A DNA stretch of 47,359 nucleotides. Source: Candidatus Omnitrophota bacterium. Its GTDB lineage: Bacteria; Omnitrophota; Gorgyraeia; JAHIPI01. The notes below the pieces were generated by a model. The model worked only from the letters and a program-made list of their open reading frames with translations. It had not been told where the DNA came from and did not search any database. The first letter of the stretch is position 1, and every line of letters begins with the position of its first letter. This document shows, piece after piece, positions 9,550 through 24,173 of the stretch. Location: assembly GCA_018894435.1 (NCBI GenBank), contig JAHIPI010000024.1, positions 1 to 47,359 on the forward strand. The letters are read 5' to 3'. Made by a program: the position numbers and the translations under genes.

Positions 9550-10515
9550 TTACACCGCCTCCATCGTTGAGGGCGGTTTTGATGTTATGTTGTAGGTAAC
9601 GCTTACTACGCCGGGCACTTCCGAAACGATTCTATCCGCCAGTTTCCTCAGTGTATCGTGCGGCAATTTTGTCCACTCGGCGCGCCTTGCGTCAATGCTG
9701 TCCCAGCACCTTATTTCGATCTGCAACCCGAAATCCCTCTTTCCCGCGCGCATGCCTGTAACTCTGTCATTGTGGAGTATCGCCATATACTGGAATGCGC
9801 CGCACCTTGCGAGCATCTCTTCTGTTATGACAGTCGCCTGCCTGACTATCTTTATTTTTTCCGGGGTTACATCGCCTATCACTCTTGCCGATAAAGCCGG
9901 CCCAGGAAATGGCATCCTGTTAAATACCGAACTCGGCAGGCCCAGCGCCTCCCCTACTTTTCTTACGCCGTCCTTACGCAGCTCGACAAGCGGCTCTATG
10001 ATCTTGTATCCGAATGCCTTTTGCGGGTCTATGCCCAGCTGTTCAAATACATTATGCTGGCGCTTTATCCCGGCAACAGTCTCGTCGACATCCGTCAAAA
10101 TGGTACCCTGCAAAAGGTATTTTGCGCCGCTATCCTTTACCAGTTTTCCAAAGACATCTTTATAGAATGTCTGGGTAATCGCCTCCCTTTTTTCTTCCGG
10201 GTCGGTTATACCTTTAAGCGCTTTAAAAAACTTGTCCCGGGCATCTGTAATCTCGACTTTTACGCCCAGTTTTTTAAATACTGCTACGACGGATTCCGGT
10301 TCATTTTCACGCATGATGCCGTTATCTATAAAATAGGTCTTAAGCCGCGCGCCGATCGCCTTATGGCCGAGCATCGTCACGACAGATGAGTCCACGCCGC
10401 CGGAAAGGGCATTTATGACAAGCCCGTCGCCTACTGTTTCAGATATATCTTTTACCTTTTTATCTATAAATTTTTTTGTATCCAGCTCATTTACCGTAAT
10501 CTCCGCTATTTTCAT
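9550..10515 (-). CDS. GMP synthase ATP-pyrophosphatase subunit, no glutaminase domain
   Basis: This protein converts XMP to GMP: it adenylates XMP with ATP and accepts ammonia. The PP-loop is SGGVDSSVV (about residues 37-45), followed by the dimerisation domain with NRMPFPGPALSARV and the C-terminal end SKPPSTMEAV. It is 321 residues and, like archaeal GuaAb, lacks the N-terminal glutamine amidotransferase found in most bacterial GuaA. The glutaminase subunit is not in this window. The start at 10515 is chosen because GGAGG lies about 7 bases upstream; an upstream in-frame ATG lacks such a site. QGTILTDVDET differs from the usual bacterial form in this loop, another archaeal-like trait. A divergent paralogue is possible. 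Confidence 0.85.
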   Translation of the reverse strand: MKIAEITVNELDTKKFIDKKVKDISETVGDGLVINALSGGVDSSVVTMLGHKAIGARLKTYFIDNGIMRENEPESVVAVFKKLGVKVEITDARDKFFKALKGITDPEEKREAITQTFYKDVFGKLVKDSGAKYLLQGTILTDVDETVAGIKRQHNVFEQLGIDPQKAFGYKIIEPLVELRKDGVRKVGEALGLPSSVFNRMPFPGPALSARVIGDVTPEKIKIVRQATVITEEMLARCGAFQYMAILHNDRVTGMRAGKRDFGLQIEIRCWDSIDARRAEWTKLPHDTLRKLADRIVSEVPGVVSVTYNITSKPPSTMEAV

Positions 10516-10570
10516 ATTTATCCTCCGATTTACCCTCACTTACTCGTCCGTAAATCGTCCCGAGCAAGCG

Positions 10571-10829: not shown

Positions 10830-11426
10830 TCAAGCACCACGCCTTCTCCTGTGGCCAGCGACAATATCTTCTATATCCTTCCAAACCTCAGGCATCTCTA
10901 AAAACGAAGCGAACTCTTTAACTTTTTTCTTAATGTAAAGCCTGTCGATTTTAGGATTACTATTAACGATCTCCTGGATATCTATGAGATCCACGGGCCG
11001 ATGGGCCACTGCCTTAAATACGATCAAATCTTCCGGCGTTGGCAGATAAAAAGTTAATCCTCCGATCCTATATCTTTTACTGTTCTTTATCGCCTCTTTC
11101 TCGAACGGCAAAAACCCTAAAGATATGTCCACATTGATACCGCTTCCTTTATGCGCCAGGAGCAAAACCCTGTTCTTTTTGGCGAATCCGACAGCGTTTT
11201 TTATGCGCTCCTTAAAACCGTATTGCCGGGATACCCGCAGCATTCTCGCAATATCATCATCTTCCACCAACGCCAGCACATCTACGTCTGCTGTGAATCT
11301 GGGTTTTCCCAGGATACTCGCCGCCACACCTCCAATAATCGCCCATGGGCACCCTGATTTCTTCATTAACTTTTGTATGGAAATCAGGGATCTTAGCAAA
11401 ATTTCGAGCCGCTGCGATCTCTTCAC
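10830..11426 (-). CDS. Nucleotidyltransferase, AbiEii/MNT-like
   Basis: This protein of about 198 residues has the Pol-beta-like nucleotidyltransferase signature: IIGGVAASILG (glycine pair at residues 32-33) followed by RFTADVDVL with the metal-binding D47 and D49. The later DLIVFKAVAHRPVDLIDI segment is typical of AbiEii-type and related proteins. I prefer the GTG at 11426, which overlaps the stop of the 74-residue gene upstream as GTGA; a longer frame begins with GTG at 11456. With that small partner it resembles a two-gene toxin-antitoxin-like unit, but whether it modifies a tRNA, a protein or nothing is unknown. Confidence 0.75.
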   Translation of the reverse strand: MKRSQRLEILLRSLISIQKLMKKSGCPWAIIGGVAASILGKPRFTADVDVLALVEDDDIARMLRVSRQYGFKERIKNAVGFAKKNRVLLLAHKGSGINVDISLGFLPFEKEAIKNSKRYRIGGLTFYLPTPEDLIVFKAVAHRPVDLIDIQEIVNSNPKIDRLYIKKKVKEFASFLEMPEVWKDIEDIVAGHRRRRGA

Positions 11427-11647
11427 CTTCGGCCGCCTTTCTTTAAGAGTATCCACCGTGAGCGCACTCTTAATTTTTGCTGATCTTCTCCAATCTTTAA
11501 TCCCAAACCGGCCCCTATGGCCATAATCGAAGCAAGTTTATACAACCGTTCTTTTATGGACATCCTGTGAAGCTGCTCATCTTCAAGAGCTGCCACCCTC
11601 GCCCAGTTCTTCTTAAACCTCTTCAGTAATAAATTGTCTTTTTTCAT
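11423..11647 (-). CDS. Small partner of the nucleotidyltransferase (74 aa)
   Basis: A basic helical protein of 74 residues begins MKKDNLLLKRFKKNWARVAA. It overlaps the following nucleotidyltransferase gene by 4 bases or more, so the two are probably translated together. The central stretch LASIMAIGAGLGLKIG is mildly hydrophobic. No known domain is recognised. By position it could be an antitoxin or scaffold for the nucleotidyltransferase. Confidence 0.6.
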   Translation of the reverse strand: MKKDNLLLKRFKKNWARVAALEDEQLHRMSIKERLYKLASIMAIGAGLGLKIGEDQQKLRVRSRWILLKKGGRR

Positions 11648-11714
11648 CTTTTTTAACCTCTGCCCTGTGTTACCCGTTCTCTTTCTTCGCCCTCTTATCC
11701 GCCGGCCCCGCGGA

Positions 11715-11981
11715 TTATCCGTGTATGTCCGTGTCTTTCCTTAAGGCCGCCAGTATCTTGCGCTTCTCGCTTTCATTAAACTCTGTTCCGTAAAATCTTA
11801 AAAAGACCTCTATTTTAATTTCTTGTAATGATATTTTAGGTTGTTTTTGGACTATAGAGCTTCTTACTATCTGTTTAGCGCTATCAAACATGGAGCAGCC
11901 CATAAGTAAACGCTCTTGGCAGGATTTCGCCATCATCAGCTTCCTGAATTTAGCCTCAATCGCCGGATGTGTATCGTTCAT
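11715..11981 (-). CDS. Conserved small protein paired with a nucleotidyltransferase (88 aa)
   Basis: This 88-residue protein has a pattern I have seen in many bacteria and archaea next to nucleotidyltransferases: an N-terminal helix, then RLLMGCSMFDSAKQIVRSSI, then VFLRFYGTEFNESEKRKI. No function is established that I can name. Its ATG overlaps the stop of the upstream nucleotidyltransferase by 4 bases (ATGA), strong evidence of a two-gene unit in which it may be the neutralising partner. Confidence 0.7.
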   Translation of the reverse strand: MNDTHPAIEAKFRKLMMAKSCQERLLMGCSMFDSAKQIVRSSIVQKQPKISLQEIKIEVFLRFYGTEFNESEKRKILAALRKDTDIHG

Positions 11982-12523
11982 CGTTTTAACTCCTTAAAAA
12001 TCTCATGCAATCCCAATTTTGCAACCCAAGTTTCGATATGCTTCGGATCTAAATCATCTACCGTGTCCATAATATTGCGCACGTCTTTCAATTGTAGTTC
12101 AGAATGGCTATCTTTAGCCCAAAGCAGCTTTGCTAAAATCAAATCTTCCGCTGAGATAATCCACAGCGGATTATTTGCAATCAGAATTTTTTTTCTTCTG
12201 GAGAAGGCAGCTTCCTGAAACTCTGAGTCCTTTCGGATAATAAAATCGATCTTAACCACATACTTATTGTGAATTAAATTAAACATCCCTTGACGCAGGA
12301 CTTCGCTCCTGACCATTTCTGCGTCTATATAAAAATCGTCTTTAAAAAGATCTGTAAAACGGTTAATATCGATACCTTTTAATTCTATAACGATATCGAT
12401 GTCTCTTGTCATGCGCGGTATGGTATAGTAATTGGCTGCGATTGAGCCGGAAATCATATAATTGATACCTGCTTTGTTTAGCCGTTCTGTAACAATTTTT
12501 AATACTTCTATCTCTTCATTCAT
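11978..12523 (-). CDS. Nucleotidyltransferase, AbiEii/MNT-like
   Basis: This 181-residue nucleotidyltransferase-fold protein has YMISGSIAANYY (residues 22-33), then RMTRDIDIVIEL with acidic D41 and D43. The later segment DLILAKLLWAKDSHSELQLKDV is characteristic of the AbiEii-like group that I know mainly as hypothetical proteins. The start at 12523 is chosen because its ATG overlaps the previous gene's stop (ATGA); an upstream alternative (12574) would overlap that gene by 55 bases. It is followed by the 88-residue partner with another 4-base overlap, so three genes are translationally chained. Confidence 0.8.
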   Translation of the reverse strand: MNEEIEVLKIVTERLNKAGINYMISGSIAANYYTIPRMTRDIDIVIELKGIDINRFTDLFKDDFYIDAEMVRSEVLRQGMFNLIHNKYVVKIDFIIRKDSEFQEAAFSRRKKILIANNPLWIISAEDLILAKLLWAKDSHSELQLKDVRNIMDTVDDLDPKHIETWVAKLGLHEIFKELKR

Positions 12524-13140
12524 CTCGCCAGCTTCTTGACTTCTTTTTCGAAATATTTTTTTATTTCTGCCCACTCTACTTCTTTCAACATCTGCGGCAT
12601 CTCTTCGGGTTCGGCGTCATCAAAATATACTAAACTCTTCATAATGTGCATGGCAGTGGTAGTCAAATTTTTATATTTTCTCTCATAAAGCCGGATAACT
12701 TTATCTAGAGGCGCGGTTTCTTTACAGATAAAATAAAGGTCCACAAAATCTCTCTTGGTTCCGCGGGAAGCAATGGCAGCGATCTTCATCCCTGCAATAT
12801 CCCGTACATCCGAAACATTTATCTTTCCAAACTTTTTGGGAGCATAGAGGGTAGGGTAATTATAATAAAATATGCTAAACCGCACATCGCTAAATTTACC
12901 TAATATCGTCCGCCAAGAAATTTTTTCAAGCTTAAAGTCCGATATTTTTTCAATCTCCGGTAAAAGCATCTGCTCATCAAATTCTATTGGAGTAAAGAAA
13001 TCCAGATCGTATGACAGGCGGTGTCCAAGTTGAAGCGCCAAGGCAGTTCCGCCGGCCAAATAGGTATTCCGAATGATTTTGGTTTTTTCTAATAGGGCCA
13101 GAATTGCTTTTGTATTTCCAGGAAGGACCTGTTCAAACAT
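12520..13140 (-). CDS. Nucleotidyltransferase, AbiEii-type toxin candidate
   Basis: This 206-residue protein carries the AbiEii-family pattern: YLAGGTALALQLGHR (GG at residues 30-31), then SYDLDFFTP with D45 and D47. AbiEii toxins are nucleotidyltransferases that use GTP or CTP and arrest growth. KKFGKINVSDVRDIAGMKIAAIASRGTKRDFVDLYF contains the conserved Lys-Arg-Asp region of the family. The start at 13140 has AGGAG about 9 bases upstream; the longer in-frame start (13179) lacks one. It overlaps the upstream DUF6922-like gene by about 50 bases, the usual arrangement of this toxin-antitoxin-like pair. Confidence 0.83.
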   Translation of the reverse strand: MFEQVLPGNTKAILALLEKTKIIRNTYLAGGTALALQLGHRLSYDLDFFTPIEFDEQMLLPEIEKISDFKLEKISWRTILGKFSDVRFSIFYYNYPTLYAPKKFGKINVSDVRDIAGMKIAAIASRGTKRDFVDLYFICKETAPLDKVIRLYERKYKNLTTTAMHIMKSLVYFDDAEPEEMPQMLKEVEWAEIKKYFEKEVKKLAR

Positions 13141-13391
13141 TTTACACTCTCCTTTTTGACATCTAAAATAAAGGCCCAAAAATTAGCACTTTTTTGCGAA
13201 TACCCGCGATAATTACATAAGGCATTTTTTATCTCTGATTTTTTGAAATTTTTAAACATCCACTCGACTGCCCTTTTGTCTCCGTATTCCAAAATCCGCT
13301 TTATGATGTAAATCTGCCTATTTTGCGGTTTTAGTTCCGTAAAATTCACGTCCCAAAAATATTTTTTTAGACTAGGAGGCAGCTTCTTCAT
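13089..13391 (-). CDS. DUF6922-like protein, antitoxin candidate (100 aa)
   Basis: This 100-residue protein opens LPPSLKKYFWDVNFTELK and continues QIYIIKRILEYGDKRAVEWM, the pattern of DUF6922-type proteins that precede AbiEii-like nucleotidyltransferases in many genomes. It is basic and helical, consistent with DNA binding or toxin binding, though neither is shown. It is the first gene after a strong promoter (13468-13496) and overlaps its toxin-like partner. Confidence 0.72.
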   Translation of the reverse strand: MKKLPPSLKKYFWDVNFTELKPQNRQIYIIKRILEYGDKRAVEWMFKNFKKSEIKNALCNYRGYSQKSANFWAFILDVKKESVKCLNRSFLEIQKQFWPY

Positions 13392-13467: not shown

Positions 13468-13496
13468 AGATTACACTATAAGTGCTTTATTGTCAA
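13468..13496 (-). promoter_or_regulatory. Sigma-70-type promoter for the DUF6922/NTase operon
   Basis: On the minus strand TTGACA (13491-13496) is followed after 17 bases by TAATCT (13468-13473). It lies 77 bases upstream of the 100-residue gene and overlaps the last codons of the 261-residue gene, so the downstream nucleotidyltransferase modules have their own transcription start. Confidence 0.7.
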
Positions 13497-14261
13497 GAAG
13501 TTAGCGAAACCCTTCTTCCAAATTTCCTTCGCAAGACGTTCATCTAAACTAAAATTATTTCCAAATCCAGCTGTTAATACCGGACGATATCGCCGGCCGA
13601 TATACTCAAACTCATTCAATCCGCTATACTTCAACAAATAGTGCGGGATGCGCGTCTTTTTGCCTAATACATAGAAAACCGCGGTAAAGAAGGTGTTCGT
13701 CTCGCGTTGACTGGAGCCTCCGGCACCGCCTATGCCGATCACCTCCCTGTTAGCATGATTCTTTCTAATAAATAAACTCTCAACAGGATTGCGATAGTCA
13801 AATCTAAATTCTTCTCCGCTCTTCCAGTATAGATTGGAGCGTCGATGATATTCCAAGCAAATACGTTTCTTCGTCCAGCGCGCCAGATTAAAAAATTTCT
13901 TGCGGCGCAGCATTTTTATCGCTCGCGGTCGATAATGAATATCCATAATATGCTCATCGATATCTCCGATCTTTCCTTGTGCCTTCGCAGGGCGGTATCG
14001 TTTAAGATAGGCAGCATATTCATTCTGATCTATAAGATGCTTAAATATGTATTCATCCAGCCGCGAGTATACTTCTTCTCTCGAAATATGATAATACTTC
14101 TTTTTGCGCCATGTGGACGGATCGGGATAATCGATTCGTATATGAATAGCCTCCAGATCCTTCGCATAAGGCTTAAGAGTAATAACTCCCTCTTTGATGG
14201 TCGTCTTGAGATATCCCGCGCCGTAAACCAAATTCTTTAAAAGCTCCGAGGTCTCTTTCAT
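13476..14261 (-). CDS. Unrecognised 261-aa protein
   Basis: I do not recognise this protein. It is soluble, basic and rich in Arg, Lys and Tyr. Notable stretches are residues 39-65 (IHIRIDYPDPSTWRKKKYY), the arginine-rich RAIKMLRRKKFFNLARW and a glycine-rich loop IGIGGAGGSSQRETNTFF near residue 180. The charge suggests nucleic-acid or nucleotide binding, but no catalytic motif is clear. It follows the GHKL ATPase gene by 119 bases that hold a relic of another gene pair. The relic's last codons (GATAGG) supply the likely AGG ribosome binding site. The same strand and position at the end of an AbiE-headed cluster suggest it is cargo or effector of that system. Confidence 0.7.
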   Translation of the reverse strand: MKETSELLKNLVYGAGYLKTTIKEGVITLKPYAKDLEAIHIRIDYPDPSTWRKKKYYHISREEVYSRLDEYIFKHLIDQNEYAAYLKRYRPAKAQGKIGDIDEHIMDIHYRPRAIKMLRRKKFFNLARWTKKRICLEYHRRSNLYWKSGEEFRFDYRNPVESLFIRKNHANREVIGIGGAGGSSQRETNTFFTAVFYVLGKKTRIPHYLLKYSGLNEFEYIGRRYRPVLTAGFGNNFSLDERLAKEIWKKGFANFLTIKHL

Positions 14262-14266
14262 AAAAA

Positions 14267-14355
14267 TTACCTATCGAATGACTGCCTAATCTCAAATTTG
14301 ACTATTATTTCGCGCTTTCCATCGCTTCATTAATCCGTTTAAGTGCGGCGTCCAA
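14267..14355 (-). pseudogene. Relic of an AbiEii C-terminus joined to a TIM-barrel N-terminus
   Basis: On the minus strand, 14305-14355 translates to LDAALKRINEAMESAK followed by stop, closely matching the end of the AbiEii gene at 17420 (LDTALKRINKAMENVK). Directly after it, 14267-14305 gives IVKFEIRQSFDR followed by stop, matching MIKFGIRQSFDR, the start of the TIM-barrel gene; the start codon has become ATA. So this gap is a decayed second copy of the AbiEii/TIM-barrel junction, cut short after 12 codons. Confidence 0.85.
14271..14354 (-). repeat. 84-bp direct repeat, decayed copy
   Basis: These 84 bases align without gaps to 17386-17469, with about 15 mismatches that are mostly transitions. 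The copies lie in the same orientation 3115 bp apart and bracket the TIM-barrel, kinase and GHKL genes. Confidence 0.85.
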
Positions 14356-14380
14356 AAAGGTCTGACGATATGCACTATTC

Positions 14381-16174
14381 TTATCTCAGATTCTCCTCCG
14401 CATACAAAGATAACTCTACCAGATGCTCTAAAAATTGCTCGGCAGTTTCTCCTACAAAATTATGAAGTACAAGTTCTTTTGCAAAAAGACGCAAAACGTA
14501 GCGAAGCTTCCTGGTCCGTTCCCTGCCGGCAAAAATGAAGTCTCGATGCCCGCTGTTTATTATGATAATATTGCGTTCTTTATCATAACGCGAACGCCAC
14601 ATACGGCCGGCAGCGCTCTCTAATGTATATGCCGGCAATCCTTTGTTTGAAAACTCACTATTCTCAACAGGCGCTTTCAATAAAGAGTCGATAACGGTGA
14701 TAACAGCCTCCGCTTCGCAGGTGGTGTCTGCCTGCCTCGCGACAAGTCTTAGCTTGCATAATCCGGGCTCATTTGGAGCGTTAAAAATCGCGACTTCGCC
14801 GTCATGCTTGTCAATAGTGCCTACGCCTTCTGAAATGGCCCATTGGTATGTTAACCTCTGCTCTACCTGGCGCTTACTGCGGTCTAACCCAACAGCACGA
14901 AAAGATTTCGCCTTACCTGCCTGAACAAGAGCAGAACCCGGGTGAATCCTGGCAGAAAATAGCGGTCCTGCGATTTCAAAAAACTCTCTTTGCCCATTTC
15001 CTTCTCGTCGCCGTACGTTATTGATTATAGTTGCGCCGCTTTCATCCGTAATATTGTTATTGCTGCCCGAAAAAGCTGTCTTTCTCTGTCCAATATCAAA
15101 CCAATCGTATTCTTCCTGCGGTAAAATCAGCATTGCTTCCCGCAGCGCCTTTTGAACGGAACGGAGTATATTCTTACTCATACGCTCGTCTTCGGCTTTA
15201 CTTTGCTCCAGGCCAATTTTTGTTAAATGTTCTTTAAGGGGTTCTATGCAATCACAAAATTTCGCGAAATGTTCGTCTCTAATAACTCCGTCTCTTGTGC
15301 CTGGAGTAATATGTAAAAACGGCGCGTCGATAATGCCCTGAAAATAACCTGATGTCCATGGTTCACATTGAAAGAAATCGAGCGTAGAGATATTCGGCAA
15401 TAACCGCGTTCCTCCTCGAAAAAGGCTGATACAATTTTCGGCGTTTTTTTCTGAAAGATATATCTCCATATACACATCTCCAAAAGGCGTTGTCATAGCA
15501 GGTAGATTATGAATAAGCTGTCCTTCATACTTACGCGGCTCGACTTCAAGTTCAGAACGACTGGTTCGATCGATAATCTTAATCTTCACGCCTGTATGCC
15601 GGATACGATCTCTTAACTCGGAAGCCAAATATCGCTGAATCTTCTCACCGTTCAAGATGCGTATTCCCGCAAGTAAAGGAGAGATTGTTAACTGTGTTCC
15701 CTTTATCGGCAATAGATGGAACCGGGGAGCAATGCTGTAACCCGGCTTGCCCTTCTCCATGCTCATCTGATAGATTTTGCCATCCTTGCCGGAAGAGACC
15801 ATTAATAATCTATGGCCGACTGTCCAGAAGCTAAGAAGCCCTATGCCGAATTCTCCTTGAATGTTCTGTATTCCTTCATGTTTTAAGCGCGTTTTCAGCG
15901 AGTCGCATATATGGGTCGCTACGTATTTAAAATCGGGCATCCCCTCCTCAGCACATGGAATGCCCTGTCCATCATCGATAACCTTAAGATAATGCTCGCC
16001 GCGTTCTTTGCCGCGGATAATCGTAATATGGCGTGCCTGGGCATCAATACTATTCTCAACGAATTCGGCAATTGCCTTCAAGGGATTAGTCTGCGAAAGC
16101 GCTATAATTGTTATAGCATTCCAGTTGCTGCCTATACGCAGCCGGCCGCGGCCGCTATTATGTTTTCTGGTCAT
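14381..16174 (-). CDS. GHKL (Hsp90/MORC-like) ATPase with Ig-like domain
   Basis: This 597-residue protein has an N-terminal GHKL ATPase domain: N-box AIAEFVENSIDA (E37, N41, D44), G1 motif DDGQGI (67-72) and G2 loop GEFGIG (107-112). An S5-fold transducer-like region follows (to about 320). Residues about 430-500 look like an immunoglobulin-type beta domain (TYQWAISEGVGTIDKHDGEV). The C-terminus (about 520-597) is a conserved-looking helical block with NSGHRDFIFAGRERTRK. GHKL ATPases of this kind dimerise on ATP, as in MutL, Hsp90 and MORC, and occur in several phage-defence systems. The gene lies 9 bases after the P-loop kinase gene and belongs to the AbiE-headed cluster. The exact role is unknown. 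Confidence 0.85.
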   Translation of the reverse strand: MTRKHNSGRGRLRIGSNWNAITIIALSQTNPLKAIAEFVENSIDAQARHITIIRGKERGEHYLKVIDDGQGIPCAEEGMPDFKYVATHICDSLKTRLKHEGIQNIQGEFGIGLLSFWTVGHRLLMVSSGKDGKIYQMSMEKGKPGYSIAPRFHLLPIKGTQLTISPLLAGIRILNGEKIQRYLASELRDRIRHTGVKIKIIDRTSRSELEVEPRKYEGQLIHNLPAMTTPFGDVYMEIYLSEKNAENCISLFRGGTRLLPNISTLDFFQCEPWTSGYFQGIIDAPFLHITPGTRDGVIRDEHFAKFCDCIEPLKEHLTKIGLEQSKAEDERMSKNILRSVQKALREAMLILPQEEYDWFDIGQRKTAFSGSNNNITDESGATIINNVRRREGNGQREFFEIAGPLFSARIHPGSALVQAGKAKSFRAVGLDRSKRQVEQRLTYQWAISEGVGTIDKHDGEVAIFNAPNEPGLCKLRLVARQADTTCEAEAVITVIDSLLKAPVENSEFSNKGLPAYTLESAAGRMWRSRYDKERNIIIINSGHRDFIFAGRERTRKLRYVLRLFAKELVLHNFVGETAEQFLEHLVELSLYAEENLR

Positions 16175-16183
16175 ATTGTTTCC

Positions 16184-16702
16184 TCATCTACAAATAATTT
16201 CTTTGAGCGCTCGTTGATATACCGCCGTTTCGGTCAATTGGCTTGTATCAATATAATAATTTGCCGGAATTTTTTGAAAGCGCTTAAAAAGTTTTCGGAC
16301 AAATTCATACTTACTTTTATATTTAGCGCTGTAAAGCCATCTATTTCTACGATCTTCCTTTTTCTTTTTCCGGATCCGCAAAGCAAGGGTTTTCCGCGAT
16401 GCTTCCAGTTTAATCGTAAACATCTGCTCGAAAGGTAATGCCGCCCTCAAGAATGCTTCCCTGCAATTTAATCCAGTAGTTTCAAGTATGCAATTCTTCC
16501 ACCTGTACCGTGATAGCTCCCGAAATAACGCAACCCATGCATCGGCTTCACCGATGGACGTTTGCGAAAATCGCGCCCTGTGGTAACCGATACGAATCAC
16601 CGGCACTTTTAATACCTTACTCAATCTTCGAGCTAACGCCGTCTTCCCGGCACCCGGCAAGCCGATGATGTGGATAATGGGAATGGTATTACTTTTCTTC
16701 AT
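16184..16702 (-). CDS. P-loop kinase-like NTPase (172 aa)
   Basis: The Walker A motif GLPGAGKT (residues 14-21) lies near the N-terminus, followed by a small alpha/beta kinase core with CILETTGL as a Walker-B-like strand and a basic lid-like helical stretch (LRIRKKKKEDRRNR). The size and order fit the adenylate/shikimate/zeta-toxin-like group of small-molecule kinases. The substrate cannot be read from sequence. The gene begins 10 bases after the TIM-barrel gene and ends 9 bases before the GHKL gene, so the three are almost certainly co-transcribed. Confidence 0.8.
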   Translation of the reverse strand: MKKSNTIPIIHIIGLPGAGKTALARRLSKVLKVPVIRIGYHRARFSQTSIGEADAWVALFRELSRYRWKNCILETTGLNCREAFLRAALPFEQMFTIKLEASRKTLALRIRKKKKEDRRNRWLYSAKYKSKYEFVRKLFKRFQKIPANYYIDTSQLTETAVYQRALKEIICR

Positions 16703-16712
16703 GCACTTGCCT

Positions 16713-17420
16713 TCATCGCATTGTCTTTAACAATTTCAAATCGTTTAACATTCGATCGTGAAATTCGAATAGATACTCCAAGACCACGTTCCCGTCCCAT
16801 TTGCTTTCGATAAGATAGCTTACCACATCTTTACAAAACGTATCAATTGGCAGATGTTGTTTATTCCCTTCTTTGGCCGAAAGATGGACATTCTTAATAT
16901 TTTGTTGGTAGTCCTTAAACAAGCGCCATATTGTTTTTTCATCCAATATATGTGAGGTATCAAGGGTCATCGGCAAATTGAAACTGACCGTTTCATCGGG
17001 AGTAAACACTCGTCTTTTGCCTTCAAAGGTTTCAATACAAAAAACAACTTCGCCGTTATACAAACCAGTAAAATATTCTAAATTTTTAAGCGCTTCTTCC
17101 TGAATCCTCTTATCTTTATTGACATTGTTGGGATGGAGTGTAATAGACCTAGCCCCAAGCGCCTTTGCAAAATCAGCTATTTCCTTTCCCCATATCTTAA
17201 ATCTTTCATCAGTAATGGGAGCCTGAACAGCATGTATGCCAATTACCGTTGTGTTATAAGATTTTATCTTCTCGGCAATCTCCGACAGGTGCCGTCTCAC
17301 CGGTTCATGTATATCCCAGTAATAAGGCAGAGCTACCTCAACGGGTACTCTTATGTTCGCATATCTTTCTTCAATTTGTTCAATCCTATCAAATGATTGC
17401 CTGATTCCAAACTTGATCAT
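16713..17420 (-). CDS. Xylose-isomerase-like TIM-barrel protein (AP endonuclease 2 family)
   Basis: This 235-residue TIM-barrel protein is of the sugar-phosphate isomerase/AP endonuclease IV-like group. Metal-ligand candidates appear at strand ends: SITLHPNN, VFCIETFEG, MTLDTSHI, KNVHLSAKEG and VVLEYLFEFHD. In relatives such His, Glu and Asp residues bind two or three divalent metals. The ATG shares its first base with the last base of the AbiEii stop codon (TAATG), implying translational coupling. Members act as sugar isomerases, epimerases or DNA-repair endonucleases; in this context a role in nucleotide, sugar or nucleic-acid metabolism within a defence-like cluster is possible but unproven. 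Confidence 0.8.
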   Translation of the reverse strand: MIKFGIRQSFDRIEQIEERYANIRVPVEVALPYYWDIHEPVRRHLSEIAEKIKSYNTTVIGIHAVQAPITDERFKIWGKEIADFAKALGARSITLHPNNVNKDKRIQEEALKNLEYFTGLYNGEVVFCIETFEGKRRVFTPDETVSFNLPMTLDTSHILDEKTIWRLFKDYQQNIKNVHLSAKEGNKQHLPIDTFCKDVVSYLIESKWDGNVVLEYLFEFHDRMLNDLKLLKTMR

Positions 17421-17469
17421 TATTTCACGTTTTCCATCGCTTTGTTAATCCGTTTCAGTGCGGTGTCAA
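17386..17469 (-). repeat. 84-bp direct repeat, intact copy
   Basis: This is the functional copy of the junction, spanning the last codons of the AbiEii gene and the first codons of the TIM-barrel gene. It matches 14271-14354 at roughly 82 percent identity without gaps. Confidence 0.85.
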
Positions 17470-18298
17470 GATTAAAATTTTCCTGCTCATCAGGCGTTAA
17501 GACGTCAAATAATTCTTTTTCGATGCGCAAACGCATGTCTTTGATTTCATCCTCCGTACGTCCGAGATTGACACGATATTTCGATAGGTCTGTATTACCC
17601 CTGTCTTCCTCGATTTTTTTCCTAAAAAGCTTCATGACTTCTTTATCTGCCAGGTTGAAGTTGTGCCGCAAAATAAAATCAAGGTCATAAAAATCGCGTG
17701 GAGCGATGATCTTTCTTAAGGCCGCGGCGCGCAATTTCTCGCTTACGACCTCTTTTAAAGAAAGACAAGTCACTCTGCCTGCGTCAAACAGCGGTTCCTT
17801 GGTAAAGGGGTGTAAAAACTTATGCTGCACCGTTTTCTTCTCGACAGGGCAAATCGGGTTAAACCTAAGCCCGATTTCAAACTTGATTATATGCTCTGCC
17901 GGCTGAATGGCTGATTTATACGCAAAGTAATAAATATACTGCTTGGACTCATTGCGTCCGGCTTTTTCCGCGTCATCTATGCGCATATCAAGTTGCTTGG
18001 CAAATCCTGCGATCTTATCCTTTACCGGCTGTATGGATTTACGCCGATTGCCCCGAGTCGTCGTATACTCCGGCAGAAGCATGCTAAAATCCAAATCCTC
18101 GCTCAAACGATAATACGAATAATAGATCTTATTGAGGCACGTACCGCCCTTTAAAATAAGGCCGTCCGAAAGCTCGTGCACCCTGGAAAGGATCAGCGTC
18201 ATATAATAATCCTTTTCAAGAAGCGGCGCTCTGAATCCGGTGCGCTGAACCGTAATATTTATAACATCGATAAATTGATCTTTATCCTCGTGGATCAT
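17420..18298 (-). CDS. AbiEii-type nucleotidyltransferase toxin
   Basis: This 292-residue protein of the AbiEii/AbiGii family shows the hallmark LILKGGTCLNKIYY (GG at residues 51-52), then RLSEDLDFSM with metal ligands D68 and D70, and later SLKEVVSEKLRAAALR...RDFYDLDFIL, the conserved Lys and Asp region. Known AbiEii proteins are GTP- or CTP-using nucleotidyltransferases that cause reversible growth arrest and form type IV toxin-antitoxin pairs with AbiEi. The gene overlaps the antitoxin gene by 17 bases and the TIM-barrel gene by one base. Its 3' end is the sequence duplicated at 14305-14355. Confidence 0.92.
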   Translation of the reverse strand: MIHEDKDQFIDVINITVQRTGFRAPLLEKDYYMTLILSRVHELSDGLILKGGTCLNKIYYSYYRLSEDLDFSMLLPEYTTTRGNRRKSIQPVKDKIAGFAKQLDMRIDDAEKAGRNESKQYIYYFAYKSAIQPAEHIIKFEIGLRFNPICPVEKKTVQHKFLHPFTKEPLFDAGRVTCLSLKEVVSEKLRAAALRKIIAPRDFYDLDFILRHNFNLADKEVMKLFRKKIEEDRGNTDLSKYRVNLGRTEDEIKDMRLRIEKELFDVLTPDEQENFNLDTALKRINKAMENVK

Positions 18299-19079
18299 TA
18301 ATAATGACTCTCCATTTTTTATTGAGCTTGCCTTTGAACAAACCGGTGAATGAACCTATTGCCGTATCTTCAATGCTCTTCACTAGAGGCGCCATGGCGT
18401 CACTAGAATACCCCATTTCTTCTAATAGGACACCGATCCTCTTGCGGGTTTTTATGTTGGGGAATTTTGCCGCAAAACGGATGAACTTCTTGAGATTGCA
18501 GCGCTCTTTCTTGAGCTCGCGTTTAAGGATTTCAAGAGCGCTCATTATTCCGCCGACCGGCTTATTAAAATACACTAAATCCACCAGCGTGCGCTCCAGT
18601 GAGCTAATAATGACTTCTCTGCCTTCAATATCGATCTTTTCTAAACCATACATCCGGCTTTCCGGGATCCTTAGAAAGTTAAACGCTACCTGGCATATTT
18701 TCTTTTTTCGCTGCAATGAGGTATTCAAAACATACACCACCTGAAAGAGCTGCTCCGTCAAGCTGTAGTAGTTGTACATCGTGGAATAACCGATATAATA
18801 ATTGCCTTTCGGGAAGAATTGCGGCGGGATAAGCATTTCGTTGACGGCCGCTCCCTTTTCGCCATACTCAAGGGGCGAGAAAACATATACCCCTCTTTTA
18901 ATGGTGGAAAAGATACCTTTCTTTTTCAGGCGATATACAGTTTTATTGCGCTCGATATCGTCGAACTTAAAGAGGGTGTTCAAATCTTCTTTAGTAACAA
19001 TGCGCTTTTTCTCGTAGGAAAGGCGGGAAATAACCTCGATTTCCTTCTCGCCCAGACGAGTCCTTTTTTTATTATCCAT
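18282..19079 (-). CDS. AbiEi-type antitoxin/regulator
   Basis: This protein of about 265 residues has an N-terminal winged helix (residues about 10-70: VTKEDLNTLF...VYRLKKKGIFSTIKRGVYVFSP), as in AbiEi antitoxins, which repress their own promoter. A C-terminal antitoxin domain follows, with the signature YYIGYSTMYNYYSLTEQ and ISSLERTLVDLVYF. The start at 19079 is preferred because AAGGGGG lies about 5 bases upstream; an in-frame ATG-like start further up lacks this. It is encoded just before the AbiEii toxin, overlapping it by 17 bases, the standard AbiE order. Confidence 0.9.
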   Translation of the reverse strand: MDNKKRTRLGEKEIEVISRLSYEKKRIVTKEDLNTLFKFDDIERNKTVYRLKKKGIFSTIKRGVYVFSPLEYGEKGAAVNEMLIPPQFFPKGNYYIGYSTMYNYYSLTEQLFQVVYVLNTSLQRKKKICQVAFNFLRIPESRMYGLEKIDIEGREVIISSLERTLVDLVYFNKPVGGIMSALEILKRELKKERCNLKKFIRFAAKFPNIKTRKRIGVLLEEMGYSSDAMAPLVKSIEDTAIGSFTGLFKGKLNKKWRVIINDPRG

Positions 19080-19121
19080 AATACCCCCTTGAGGAATTAT
19101 CATTAATTACTTTATAGATAC

Positions 19122-19176: not shown

Positions 19177-19204
19177 TTGCTATAGTATAAAAATATTGTA
19201 TAAT
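19177..19204 (+). promoter_or_regulatory. Probable promoter of the plus-strand glycosyltransferase
   Basis: TTGCTA (19177-19182) and TATAAT (19199-19204) are separated by 16 bases. The start codon at 19214 is only 9 bases after the -10 element and has no ribosome binding site, so this promoter would give a leaderless or nearly leaderless mRNA. A weaker alternative -10 (TATAGT at 19181) would give a longer leader. Confidence 0.5.
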
Positions 19205-19213
19205 AATACTGCT

Positions 19214-20932
19214 ATGAAGCTAACTGATAACTCGATAAAGATCCTGTTATTTGCCGTTTGCGCGATTATGTTTTTGTACCACCTCGGCAGTGCTCTTCCC
19301 ATAATAGAGATGGAGAAATTCTATTTCCAGAGCGTAAAGGAGATGTTCTCAGGGCACGACTGGATAACCCCATATTACCACGGTCAATTCAGGTTCGCCA
19401 AGCCCATCCTCTTCTACTGGTGCGTCAGTCTCTCCTATATTGTGTTCGGTATTAATAATTTTGCCGCGCGTTTTCCTTCGGCAGTCTTCGCCATCTTTAC
19501 GATAATCCTTACTTATAGTATAGGCAGGAGGCTCTTCAATCAAAAGACAGGGTTATTGGCCGCGCTCATGGCCGCTACGTTCCCTATATTTTTCATGTAC
19601 GCGCGGTATTCTTCGCCCGACATAGCGATGACATTTTTAATAACCTTTGCCATGTATCTTTTTATAAGAAAATCTTTTATCCCCTTTTTCGTCGTACTGG
19701 GGCTCGCCATGGCGACAAAAGGGCCGTTGGGATTTATCATCCCTCTCGTCGCTGTCTCGGCCTATATGATCAGCACAAAAGACCGGGCGACCCTTAAGTC
19801 AATGAATATGCCGCTCGGTATTGCAATCATCGCGGCAATAGGCCTTCCGTGGTATATATTGATGTACAAACTGCACGGAGACGTATATCTCAACCATATA
19901 ATCGCTAAAGAGGCACTGGAGCGGATGTTCTATTCTCCCGGAGACAAAACGGGATCTGCGGCCCTTTTGAACTACGCTAAACACTTCTTCGATTACGTAC
20001 CGGCCCTTTTGGCGTTTTTTATTCCGCATTCGCTCTTTTTGCCGGCATCGCTTATTGATGCTTTTAAAAATAAGAAAAGGCCCGCGGCCGAAAAAGATTC
20101 TTACAAGTTGGTCTTAAGCTTTTTTCTCACCATATTTGTACTTTTCACTCTTATCTCATCAAAGATATACCACTATATGCTGCCGATATCACCGTTTTTT
20201 GCCATTCTTGTCGCCGCATATCTAACCAGGTTAGAAGAGAGCGGGTCTTTATTCAAATCGCCGAATTTCAGGGTAATGTACACGCTTGTGATAATAACTT
20301 ATTCGTTAGGCATAACGGTCCTTCTCTACACGATGAGGCATCTTTATCCTGCCCAAGTGCCGCTCTACAATTACGGACTTATTTTTGTGCCTTTGCTTTT
20401 GGCCGTACCGTATTGGAAGAAAAAAGGTTCCGTGGCGCTCTTCGCGATACCGCTTGCAACGGCCATAGTCATGATATTTTTTGCCGGGAAGGCGCTGCCT
20501 CTATTAAACGACAATAGCCTTTCCGTGTTCGCCGATGAAATAAAAGTGACACTGAAAGAGGGCGACAGGGTAGGCGTAGGGTCTATGGACATCAGCCAGC
20601 AGCGGCTCGGCTTATATCTGAACATGCGAATTGAAGAAGTGAATGTAAAATGGAAAGATACGGAGAAGGCCCTGCCCGCGCACAGGCAAAAATTGGAGCA
20701 ATTTATTAATTCCGGCGCAAAGGTTTACCTTGTGATTTCGGAGGATGATTACAAAAAAGCCGTACCCGATGAGCTTAAACCAAAACTTTTGGTACTCGAC
20801 GAGCGGGATACTTGGAAGTCAAGGCTTAAAAACGGATTTAAGAAAGATACTCTTCGGGATATATTGAACGGAAAAAAGGATCTGCTTCGTGATGTGCTGC
20901 GGCATAAACTCTATTTGCTAACCAATAAGTAA
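19214..20932 (+). CDS. ArnT/PMT-family membrane glycosyltransferase
   Basis: This 572-residue integral membrane protein of the GT39/GT83 type transfers a sugar from a polyprenyl-phosphate carrier to a lipid or protein on the outer face of the inner membrane. The N-terminal half has about a dozen membrane helices. Motifs include HDWITPYYHGQFRFAKPILFYW, with the acidic and KP-x-YW residues of ArnT-like enzymes, and later YARYSSPDIAM. The C-terminal 130 residues form a soluble domain. It is the only clear plus-strand gene in the window and is divergent from the AbiE-headed cluster. The first frame codon at 19196 is less likely than the ATG at 19214, which starts a normal basic-then-hydrophobic N-terminus. 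Confidence 0.85.
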   Translation: MKLTDNSIKILLFAVCAIMFLYHLGSALPIIEMEKFYFQSVKEMFSGHDWITPYYHGQFRFAKPILFYWCVSLSYIVFGINNFAARFPSAVFAIFTIILTYSIGRRLFNQKTGLLAALMAATFPIFFMYARYSSPDIAMTFLITFAMYLFIRKSFIPFFVVLGLAMATKGPLGFIIPLVAVSAYMISTKDRATLKSMNMPLGIAIIAAIGLPWYILMYKLHGDVYLNHIIAKEALERMFYSPGDKTGSAALLNYAKHFFDYVPALLAFFIPHSLFLPASLIDAFKNKKRPAAEKDSYKLVLSFFLTIFVLFTLISSKIYHYMLPISPFFAILVAAYLTRLEESGSLFKSPNFRVMYTLVIITYSLGITVLLYTMRHLYPAQVPLYNYGLIFVPLLLAVPYWKKKGSVALFAIPLATAIVMIFFAGKALPLLNDNSLSVFADEIKVTLKEGDRVGVGSMDISQQRLGLYLNMRIEEVNVKWKDTEKALPAHRQKLEQFINSGAKVYLVISEDDYKKAVPDELKPKLLVLDERDTWKSRLKNGFKKDTLRDILNGKKDLLRDVLRHKLYLLTNK

Positions 20933-20942
20933 GTACTTACTT
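20927..20942. repeat. 16-bp palindrome across two convergent stop codons
   Basis: AAGTAAGTACTTACTT is a perfect palindrome that includes the TAA of the plus-strand glycosyltransferase (20930-20932) and the TAA of the minus-strand epimerase (20937-20939). It has no loop or T-run, so it is a poor terminator by itself. Confidence 0.6.
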
Positions 20943-22010
20943 CTCCCCCTGCCAGCGCTCCACATTCAAATCATAAATCTCGCCAAGGATTTTCGGCACA
21001 TCATATTCTATGTGCCAGGCGGGATAGTGGCTCATAAACTTCGCGACGCTCGATATCCACCACATATGGTCGCCGACGCGGTTCGTATCGGAATAAGTCC
21101 ACTTCATTTTCTTCGCGGTAATTTCTTCGCATATCTTGACAGCTTCCAACATGGAGCAGTTTGAGTATCTTGCCCCTCCCATATTGTAGACTTCTCCCGC
21201 GCGCGGCGCCTTAAAGAATTCATGAAAGGCGCGTATCAGGTCGTTGCTATGAATATTGTCCCGCACCTGTTTGCCTTTGTAGCCGAAGACGGTGTAGGGT
21301 TCGTCTTTTGCGGCGCACTTCATAAGATAGGCGAGAAAGCCGTGCAGCTGGGTGGGCGAATGGCGCGGCCCCGTAAGACAGCCGCCGCGAAAAGAGGCCG
21401 TATACATCCCGAAATAGCGGCCGTATTCCTGCACCAATATATCAGCGGCAACTTTTGACGCACCGAAGAGACTGTGCAGATTCTGGTCTATGGACATATC
21501 TTCTCGTATGCCTTCATGATAGGTGTGGCTCGGGTCTATTTCAAAACGATATTCCTTCTCAATCAATGGCAGGCGGTTCGGGGTATCGCCGTAAACTTTA
21601 TTGGTAGAGGTAAAAATAAATACCGCCTTCGGGGCATGGAGGCGTGCCGCTTCCAGTATATTGAGCGTGCCATTGGCATTTACCGTAAAATCCGTTATCG
21701 GCTCGCGCGCGGCCCAGTCGTGCGACGGCTGCGCGGCAGTATGTATTATAAGTTTTATGTCGGAGGCGTACTTTTTGAATATCTTTTCTATTGCGGCGTA
21801 ATCTCTTATGTCGGCGTCTACATGGCAGTATTTCTTGCCGAGCTCCTTTTCCAGATGTTCGCGCTGCCATTTGGTGGAGGCGTTGTCGCCGAAAAATGTG
21901 CGACGCATGTCGTTATCTATCCCGACCACATCAAAACCTAAGCGGACAAAAAACGCCGATGCCTCCGAGCCTATCAATCCGGCCGAACCTGTTATTATCG
22001 CGACACTCAT
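20937..22010 (-). CDS. NAD-dependent nucleotide-sugar epimerase, CDP-tyvelose epimerase-like
   Basis: This 357-residue extended SDR enzyme has the NAD-binding motif TGSAGLIGS at residues 7-15. The opening [18 protein letters not shown] closely fits the CDP-paratose/tyvelose 2-epimerase group. [16 protein letters not shown] and [18 protein letters not shown] follow. In the active-site YxxxK motif the Tyr is replaced by Phe (SLFGASK); a nearby Tyr may substitute, or the enzyme may use another mechanism. It is the last gene of the glycosyltransferase run and probably prepares a sugar nucleotide for glycan synthesis. The exact substrate is not clear. Confidence 0.82.
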
Positions 22011-22061
22011 ATTTATCCTTCCGATTTCTAACCTGGTTAGATCTGTCAGGTTAGAGCAGGC

Positions 22062-22805
22062 TTATTTTTTACAATAATCATTTTTTTTAAACAACGCAAG
22101 CCACAATGCATAAAACATCACCTGCACGTAGCCCCATCCGACCTGAAAGAGCTTAAATTTAGATTTTCCCATCTGGGGGCTGCGGTTGATCCAGGCGACC
22201 GGCACCTCGCCTACCTCGTAGCCGAATATTATAGGCAAGATTCCCGTCTCGGCGTTCATCGAAAAACCGCCGCTTTTCCACGGCATCTTCCGCACGATGT
22301 CCGCCTTATAAAGTTTAAAATTGTTGGTGAGGTCTTTCTGCTTTATACCGAAAATGATCCGCACAATAGCGTGCCATCCGCGGTTCATAAGTTTCTTATC
22401 CCCGGGGTAGCCCACGAGCCGGCCGCCTTCTGTAAAGCGCGACCCTATGACTCCGTCGAGTGATTTCTTCTCCAGCTCATTTATCATCGCGCGTACATCT
22501 TTGACATTTTCCAGAAAATCGCTGTCCATGGAAAGGACGTATTCGGCCCTGGGACTTACATTACGAAAACCCGTCCTAATTGCGTACCCAACACCCGAAG
22601 GAGCCCCTTTTCTTACGAGTTTGACTTTGCCGCTATTTTTCGCCCGCGATCCTACGACAGCGGAAGTGTTGTCGGTGCTTGAGTCGTCAACGGCAACGAT
22701 CTCCAGAAGCTCTTTATCATAATTGGCAAGAAGGGCATCTATCATCTCACCTATCACCGCTTCTTCGTTATGTGCGATTAAGACTATGGAGAGGTTCTCT
22801 TTCAC
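22062..22805 (-). CDS. Family 2 glycosyltransferase, dolichyl-phosphate-sugar synthase-like
   Basis: This 247-residue GT-A enzyme has the N-terminal pattern LSIVLIAHNEEAVIG, then VAVDDSSTDNT, then LSMDSDF, giving the nucleotide-sugar and metal-binding acidic residues. It resembles polyprenyl-phosphate sugar synthases, which make the lipid-linked donor used by GT39/83/87 enzymes such as its neighbours. The GTG at 22805 is preferred as start: it overlaps the stop of the upstream gene (TAGTG) and has AAAGG nearby; the longer frame to 22874 would add 23 residues with no family resemblance. Confidence 0.85.
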   Translation of the reverse strand: MKENLSIVLIAHNEEAVIGEMIDALLANYDKELLEIVAVDDSSTDNTSAVVGSRAKNSGKVKLVRKGAPSGVGYAIRTGFRNVSPRAEYVLSMDSDFLENVKDVRAMINELEKKSLDGVIGSRFTEGGRLVGYPGDKKLMNRGWHAIVRIIFGIKQKDLTNNFKLYKADIVRKMPWKSGGFSMNAETGILPIIFGYEVGEVPVAWINRSPQMGKSKFKLFQVGWGYVQVMFYALWLALFKKNDYCKK

Positions 22806-24040
22806 TATGCCTTTCTTGTCGCAGGCAACATCAGAGTAGCCACGGCGCCCAGCCAGAAAAGAAGAGTAGTCCAAAAAAGTACGGAGATATTATTTAAGAA
22901 GCGCACCGCGATAGAATAACTCCCTATTATTAAGATAATAGCCAATATCCGCAAAACTGCTTTTTGGTCGGCGGGTGTTTCCGGCCGGCCGATATAGTTG
23001 AATACGGCGAAATATATTACAAAAAGCCAAGCCCATGTGTAATAAATGCAGTACTGCGGCAATAATAACGCCAAAATAAGGAAGATCGCATACTGCAGCC
23101 CCTGAAAAACGTCTTTTCTCCCCTTCCACGCGGCTAGAAGTGAGAAAAATACAATAAGCCCTGCGGAAATCCTGATTATAAAATGGAGCACCACGGGAGG
23201 CAAAAGATACGTAAACTGCCATGTTTTACCGAACGCGAAGAGCTTTCCTACTGCGCTCGGCAGCGACTGACTGCTTGCCCTGAGGTCAATATAACTCGCG
23301 TATGAAGTGGTCAGGGAAAATGGTTTCAGCGTCCGGACAAACCACTCCCTGAGAAGGAAATTATTGAATTCGAACCCGAAAAAGAGAGACGGAACTGCGA
23401 CAAATACAATAAGGAACGCCGGAATAAAACTGATAATATATTCTTTCTTCCTTATAATAAAATACAGCAGGAAAAATACAAGCGGAATATATACTGTTAT
23501 TGCCAGGCTGAACAAAAGCGCCGATATAAAGAGCCTGTTCTCCTTGAAAAGTAGAAGCGCTGCCAGTATAAAGAAAAGCGCCATTATCTTATTCTGGCAA
23601 TTTGCCAGCTCATAACCTATGAGCGGCAAAGTAAGAAGGAAACTTAATTTCAGGTTGTGATTACCGATCTCTTTAGAAGGCGCCGGAATAAGCCTGAGAA
23701 GCATCTTTGCGCTTAACGCGAGCAATAAAACTTGAGTCCAATACCACGCAAGTATGGAAGGGGTAATATTGACGAATTTAAAAGGCTGGTACATTTTACT
23801 TTCGAGCATAAAAGGCCACTGCAGTATGGCAAAACCGGGCGCATAACGGAAAAGCGACCTGTCGACGTCGGTGGGGTTTTCGTAGGGAGTCCTTTGGTTC
23901 TTTATCTGCTCTATCCCGAACAAGCCGACCCTTAAATCCTTGCCGTCTCTCACCACTGTAACTATTGCCAATGAAATTACGAAAGTAACTATTATGATCC
24001 CGAATATAAGTCCGGAATCAATTATCTTTTTAAATATCAC
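22805..24040 (-). CDS. GT87-like integral membrane glycosyltransferase
   Basis: This polytopic membrane protein of about 411 residues has 10 or more helices. An extracytoplasmic segment, PYENPTDVDRSLFRYAPGFAI, with its conserved acidic and RY residues and FRYAP-x-G, is typical of DUF2029/GT87 mannosyltransferases that use polyprenyl-phosphate sugars. GTG at 24040 (GAGG about 8 bases upstream) is the favoured start; a TTG at 24064 would add 8 residues. It lies between the small membrane ORF and the GT2 gene and overlaps both, so these genes form one translational chain. Confidence 0.75.
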   Translation of the reverse strand: MIFKKIIDSGLIFGIIIVTFVISLAIVTVVRDGKDLRVGLFGIEQIKNQRTPYENPTDVDRSLFRYAPGFAILQWPFMLESKMYQPFKFVNITPSILAWYWTQVLLLALSAKMLLRLIPAPSKEIGNHNLKLSFLLTLPLIGYELANCQNKIMALFFILAALLLFKENRLFISALLFSLAITVYIPLVFFLLYFIIRKKEYIISFIPAFLIVFVAVPSLFFGFEFNNFLLREWFVRTLKPFSLTTSYASYIDLRASSQSLPSAVGKLFAFGKTWQFTYLLPPVVLHFIIRISAGLIVFFSLLAAWKGRKDVFQGLQYAIFLILALLLPQYCIYYTWAWLFVIYFAVFNYIGRPETPADQKAVLRILAIILIIGSYSIAVRFLNNISVLFWTTLLFWLGAVATLMLPATRKA

Positions 24041-24158
24041 GCTTTTTCCTCGCCTTTCCGCCAAGGCCTTTTTTGAGTATCCTTGTGAAGCAGAATATAG
24101 CCAATGAGATTATCGCTGCCCAGGAAAATATAATAAAAATCCAGCCGCTCGGCCTCAT
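24030..24158 (-). CDS. Small single-pass membrane protein (42 aa)
   Basis: An ATG at 24156-24158, preceded by AGAAAGG, opens a 42-codon frame. The product has a short polar start (MRPSGW), a strongly hydrophobic helix (IFIIFSWAAIISLAIFCF) and a very basic tail with KKGLGGKARKKRD. It fills the only gap between the TreT gene and the GT87-like gene and overlaps the latter in another frame. I recognise no family. A small membrane partner of the glycosyltransferase is conceivable. Confidence 0.55.
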   Translation of the reverse strand: MRPSGWIFIIFSWAAIISLAIFCFTRILKKGLGGKARKKRDI

Positions 24159-24173
24159 AGGAGCCTTTCTCGT

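Follow-up and report, generated by a model that had tools for sequence, protein, structure and literature searches.

Within the window, that is, the whole 47,359-nucleotide stretch of Omnitrophota DNA analysed here (source assembly 1.57 Mb in 96 contigs), a complete AbiE toxin–antitoxin (TA) pair runs into three further genes, which encode a TIM-barrel metalloenzyme (TIM), a small P-loop kinase and a GHKL ATPase. The reading that we favour is that the pair probably anchors shuffled cargo, heading a transcript into which exchangeable genes of a pool were captured. TIM, the kinase, GHKL and w261 (a 261-aa protein encoded next to them), and elsewhere a NinI-like phosphatase and two metallophosphoesterases, would on balance constitute this pool, whose members would move separately and be maintained by selection. 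Both in Omnitrophota and in a few further phyla, pool genes appear to have come repeatedly to lie behind nucleotidyltransferase (NTase)-type TA modules (AbiE, AbiEi-like/NTase and MNT-HEPN). Gene content, spacing, an association above the base rate, partner turnover, decayed remnants and purifying selection were all observed. The recurrent recapture of cargo behind TA pairs is real.

A complete AbiE pair at the head of a tightly packed gene run

The features of the locus are as follows.

18282..19103, minus strand, AbiEi antitoxin/winged-helix repressor (PADLOC AbiEi, E = 5.7e-44)
17420..18298, minus strand, AbiEii nucleotidyltransferase toxin (PF08843, E = 1.8e-29; PADLOC AbiEii, 8.5e-36)
16713..17420, minus strand, TIM, AP-endonuclease-2/xylose-isomerase-like metalloenzyme (PF01261, E = 4e-8)
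16184..16702, minus strand, small P-loop kinase with Walker A motif GLPGAGKT (AAA_18, E = 7.6e-8; SKI, 2e-5)
14381..16174, minus strand, GHKL ATPase (HATPase_c_3, MORC/MutL-like; PF13589, E = 1.3e-10)
14270..14352, minus strand, decayed AbiEii–TIM junction (83-nt direct repeat, translation, blastn)
13476..14261, minus strand, w261, 261-aa cargo protein of the same gene pool (neighbourhood recurrence)

The five open reading frames (ORFs) from AbiEi to GHKL all lie on the minus strand in the order AbiEi, AbiEii, TIM, kinase and GHKL. AbiEi and AbiEii overlap by 17 bases and AbiEii and TIM by 1, whereas TIM and the kinase are 10 bases apart and the kinase and GHKL 9. An earlier note on this DNA had given exactly this layout, and its domain calls were borne out by the Pfam and PADLOC scores. 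AbiEi probably starts at the ATG at 19103 or at the later in-frame ATG at 19079, the latter being the start given in the earlier note.

Judged by its sequence, AbiEi–AbiEii is a standard, complete type IV TA pair. The PADLOC match of AbiEi spans residues 17–269, which include the winged helix and the C-terminal domain, and the Pfam AbiEi_4 and AbiEi_1 scores fall just under their cut-offs. AbiEii scores 103.8 bits against PF08843 (cut-off 22.5), and its NTase motifs are intact (KGGTCLN...SEDLDFS...EKLRAA...RDFYDL) and match the published motif description (PMC3985639). The antitoxin gene lies directly upstream of the toxin gene and overlaps it. In their order, families, slight overlap and NTase motifs, these two genes agree with type IV AbiE systems. 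Unlike the AbiE loci described, which are bicistronic (PMC3985639), further genes follow here by overlap or minimal gap.

The survey set for gene counts comprised 384 Omnitrophota genomes. Relatives of AbiEii were found in 59 of them (E ≤ 1e-40), and some 20 further loci of the survey have an AbiEi relative of 49–85% identity ahead of AbiEii, the two genes in most cases overlapping to a similarly small extent. The genes downstream of those pairs are very varied, with restriction, Fic, RadC and DUF4143-type ATPase genes among them.

TIM recurs behind different NTase-type TA genes

TIM, kinase and GHKL relatives were present in 13, 11 and 14 of the 384 genomes, respectively, those of GHKL being 53–74% identical over the full length. 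TIM lies directly behind an NTase-type TA gene in 10/19 loci, compared with 10/431 control genes taken from the same loci (Fisher p ~2e-10), and at most two genes behind one in 12/19 loci, compared with 16/431 controls. Because part of the TA markers came from TIM loci, which favours the broader result, the test was repeated with AbiE markers only, namely AbiEi and AbiEii of the window, and with the window itself left out. TIM was then directly behind AbiE in 5/18 loci, compared with 2/445 controls (p ~1e-6).

The TA genes ahead of TIM are of several types. AbiE precedes it in loci L042, L043, L135 (a Syntrophaceae record), L136 and L144, an AbiEi-like/NTase pair in L044 and L046, a lone AbiEi-like gene in L045, and MNT-HEPN in L047 and, with w261 in between, in L051. 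These types are scattered over the TIM tree, and within a single close clade every tip has a different upstream neighbour (AbiEi-like/NTase pair, lone AbiEi-like gene, MNT-HEPN and transposase). The labels of NTase, MNT, HEPN and DUF4143-type neighbours were assigned by reading the sequences, mostly without a Pfam check; no NCBIfam model gave a useful match to NTase263, to its AbiEi-like partner or to one DUF4143-type ATPase.

Neighbourhood maps showed that GHKL, TIM and the kinase each mostly travel singly and in many settings, and no other genome among the 384 combines the three in one cluster or behind AbiE. The cargo proteins are under purifying selection (dN/dS 0.05–0.16; ~0.1 for TIM and ~0.1 for the kinase), while their neighbours turn over rapidly. 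The earlier note had staked its proposal on the co-occurrence of cargo with AbiE genes. This was confirmed in part, by the position of TIM in the AbiE-only test and by loci in genomes G313 and G329, whereas no other surveyed genome has the five-gene set. Because cargo recurs behind AbiE and other NTase TA genes, a conserved AbiE neighbourhood does exist, although its unit would be a pool of exchangeable cargo rather than a single machine.

Decayed junctions and the sixth gene w261

The low end of the interval covered by the earlier note (14267 onwards) holds a decayed AbiEii–TIM junction, which that note overlooked together with the sixth gene, w261. The 83 nt at 14270–14352, placed between GHKL and w261, are 83% identical to the intact junction of the AbiEii 3′ end and the TIM 5′ end at 17385–17467, and they translate as the AbiEii C-terminus DAALKRINEAMESAK* plus the TIM N-terminus VKFEIRQSFDR. 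Similar scars were found elsewhere. L043 and L141 retain an AbiEii tail ahead of TIM, though the genes upstream now differ, and L046 retains the 3′ end of a phosphatase ahead of TIM. The AbiEii–TIM scars therefore point to an old AbiEi–AbiEii–TIM unit, in which TA and cargo genes were exchanged later.

w261 has no Pfam or PADLOC match. It occurs in 3/384 genomes, in all three beside TIM or beside a kinase remnant and GHKL. In G329 (L017) the contig ends in a 3′ fragment of w261, next to which come a kinase remnant, GHKL, AbiEi, AbiEii and a metallophosphoesterase fragment, in this order. Because the kinase remnant (26 residues, 92% identity), which lies between w261 and GHKL, adjoins GHKL, kinase and GHKL were neighbours in G329 too. 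Furthermore, the first 119 bases of TIM are joined to an internal part of w261 in L144, and the start of w261 is retained after TIM in L047.

An origin as integron cassettes gained no support: the repeat search, run without a dedicated attC model, found no attC-type repeat family at gene borders, and Rfam gave no match. A phage origin of the cargo was rejected, as IMG/VR viral contigs held no relatives of GHKL and no confirmed relatives of TIM, and phage records none of TIM; so was a plasmid origin, neither GHKL nor TIM having a match in the plasmid collection.

The cargo proteins

Both score (PF01261, 33.6 bits; gathering threshold 31.1) and predicted fold (pLDDT 87; fold search probability 1.0) place TIM in the AP endonuclease 2 superfamily. 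No solved structure is related to it by sequence. The predicted fold resembles sugar epimerases (YcjR and UlaE) and endonuclease IV about equally, although TIM is only 13–17% identical to them and smaller (235 aa). Eight residues of metal-ligand type (H63, H96, E130, D154, H157, H179, H189 and E215) are invariant across ten sequences, including an outlier of 28% identity; in number and order they resemble the metal site of endonuclease IV. The closest curated model is that of CbiR, a cobamide-remodelling phosphodiesterase (PMC7733943), with which TIM also shares conserved His/Asp/Glu residues of metal-ligand type. However, the score of 45.6 bits lies well below the cut-off of 105, and the neighbouring genes that were read in the fetched loci, not all of them annotated, included no recognised cobamide gene.

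The kinase can be assigned no more closely than as a small P-loop kinase, and solved structures gave weak sequence matches only. In L097 and L098 (G338 and G365) it follows AbiEi-like, NTase and NinI-like phosphatase genes and precedes genes reading as miaB and miaA, with hflX next in L097. It adjoins metallophosphoesterases in L100 to L103, and G313 (L111) carries AbiEi–AbiEii–phosphatase–kinase fragment. The NinI-like phosphatase of the sister loci matches phrog_246 (E = 1e-46). A small kinase beside such a phosphatase recalls RNA repair by a kinase–phosphatase (Pnkp) and NinI-like phosphatases; however, the phosphatase scores only 17 bits against the Pnkp model and the kinase does not match it, and no RNA ligase was recognised. 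The miaB–miaA–hflX region repeatedly adjoins inserted TA and cargo genes in Omnitrophota (L097 and L098; also L019, L020 and L025) and is possibly an insertion hotspot there.

GHKL is classed by its motifs as a MORC/MutL-like ATPase. Its HATPase_c_3 N-terminal domain carries intact Bergerat motifs, as in MORC-like, paraMORC and MzaB proteins, but it scores at most 42 bits against any curated model and has its own conserved C-terminal domain. The MzaB model gave 14–15 bits (E about 0.002) against an NCBIfam cut-off of 850, which leaves GHKL outside MZA. No solved structure is related to it by sequence, and its predicted structure (pLDDT 55) was too poor for a fold search. The earlier note's suggestion of an Ig-like domain fits a beta-rich block at residues 406–495 of this low-confidence model. 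Upstream of GHKL stand MNT-HEPN in L015, MNT alone in L016 and DUF4143-type ATPases in L018, L022 and L024. In five loci (L018, L022, L024, L138 and L141) the gene immediately before GHKL or TIM encodes a DUF4143-type AAA ATPase, compared with 1/431 control genes. In addition, AbiEi–AbiEii–TIM is followed in G330 by a different GHKL/HSP90-like ATPase (L043:3-758, minus strand), truncated where the contig stops, which makes this the second locus where a GHKL protein comes after AbiE and TIM.

Neighbouring genes in the window

Below w261, the same island continues with these features.

10830..13391, minus strand, further nucleotidyltransferase genes of the same TA-rich island (Pfam matches)
12520-13179, minus strand, AbiEii-like gene, behind a DUF6922 gene at 13089-13391 (Pfam)
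11978-12574, minus strand, NTase-like gene (Pfam)
10830-11456, minus strand, DUF2204-like gene (Pfam)

This nucleotidyltransferase run makes 10.8–19.1 kb of the window a TA-rich island. The GMP synthase at 9550–10539 reads as the ATP-pyrophosphatase/dimerisation half (329 aa), with no amidotransferase domain in the same ORF, and genes read as glycan-type lie at 19196–25385. An empty-site synteny comparison showed that the surroundings of a homospermidine-synthase-like flank gene are rearranged in relatives.

Weighing the explanations

Under anchored capture, AbiEi would be expected to repress the promoter of its own pair, as has been demonstrated in other AbiE systems (PMC3985639), and the overlapping or near-touching cargo genes would be co-transcribed from the AbiEi-repressed promoter. 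TA addiction may then keep the linked cargo, with the AbiE pair stabilising linked DNA, by analogy with AbiE systems reported to stabilise mobile elements (PMC3985639), and recombination near TA/cargo junctions may exchange it. TIM would be a metal-dependent phosphodiesterase or isomerase, the kinase would act on a small substrate, and GHKL would be an ATPase.

Several points weigh against this reading. Cargo stands directly behind AbiE in only 1 of the about 20 surveyed AbiE loci of the phylum, and GHKL is close to a TA gene in few loci. The partial choice of TA markers from TIM loci inflates the broader test, an effect that the AbiE-only test avoids, and the loci behind both tests are not phylogenetically independent. 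Neither an integrase nor an attC site or target duplication came to light, though no dedicated attC model was run, and the retention role of the AbiE pair is one that we infer.

The cargo enzymes might instead be functional partners of NTase TA modules that reverse, repair or tune nucleotide marks put on RNA or protein by the NTase, which we consider unlikely. These tasks would fall to TIM, the NinI-like phosphatase and the metallophosphoesterases, as phosphodiesterases or phosphatases, and to the kinase. NTase TA families are writers of phosphodiester-linked nucleotides, and several different ones precede TIM. Several pool members are predicted phosphoester enzymes, with a phosphodiesterase as TIM's nearest curated model, and more than half of the kinase loci pair the kinase with a phosphatase. 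MNT is reported to modify HEPN (PMC7641770), MenT to extend tRNA (PMC10435456), and phosphorylation to neutralise some NTase toxins (PMC7205606, PMC11375011). However, most NTase TA pairs lack these cargo genes, several TIM loci (L048, L049, L050, L132 and L137) lack TA genes, and many kinds of genes lie behind AbiE, as in any variable island. A shade less likely is the specific version in which NTase TA systems have an interchangeable third component, supplied by TIM, the NinI-like phosphatase, a metallophosphoesterase or the kinase. These enzymes would then erase or regulate the phosphodiester marks written by the NTases, and AbiE, AbiEi-like/NTase and MNT-HEPN modules would share and swap them.

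That TA genes and the three cargo genes merely gather in the same variable islands, with tight spacing as a matter of compact genome style, is slightly more doubtful again. The diversity of island neighbours, the many non-TA neighbours of GHKL and the kinase, and the use of the miaB–miaA–hflX region as a site for several of the TA and cargo genes are consistent with such stacking. In contrast, control genes from the same loci stand behind TA genes at roughly one-twentieth of the rate for TIM, the AbiE-only association argues against chance, and the rare w261 always keeps the company described above.

It is improbable that TIM is a surface-sugar enzyme of polysaccharide clusters, with TA genes as accidental neighbours of variable clusters. 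Genes read as glycan-type lie near TIM in the window and in L048, L049, L051 and L138, and the nearest predicted folds include YcjR and UlaE. However, no glycan genes were recognised in L042, L044, L135 and L136, where TIM is directly behind TA genes, and this explanation accounts for neither the similarity to CbiR nor the extra conserved histidines of TIM.

A true five-gene anti-phage system, as the earlier note proposed, is very improbable: AbiE confers phage resistance in other hosts (PMC3985639) and GHKL/paraMORC ATPases occur in restriction-modification neighbourhoods (PMC3710099), but a fixed set was rejected because no second genome among the 384 keeps it, purifying selection maintains GHKL, TIM and the kinase also where the others are absent, and the three cargo proteins score no better than noise against the PADLOC defence models.

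Anchored capture resembles defence and TA islands and TA-linked mobile-element cargo in that patchy mobile genes cluster with TA modules and neighbour remnants decay. It differs in that one particular small set of cargo genes is found time and again immediately after NTase-type TA genes, often with an overlap, and that no mobile element was recognised. Titles and abstracts on the operons and partners of AbiE, on TA genes of Omnitrophota and on accessory enzymes of TA systems, which cover the field in part, contained no description of recurrent cargo capture behind NTase TA genes. To our knowledge, such capture of a specific cargo pool has not been described before.

TA pairs are usually taken as closed two-gene units, and the occurrence of TIM behind unrelated NTase TA families departs from that view. 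Either TA pairs of this large, uncultured phylum anchor a particular set of cargo genes, or the cargo enzymes act on NTase-written products.

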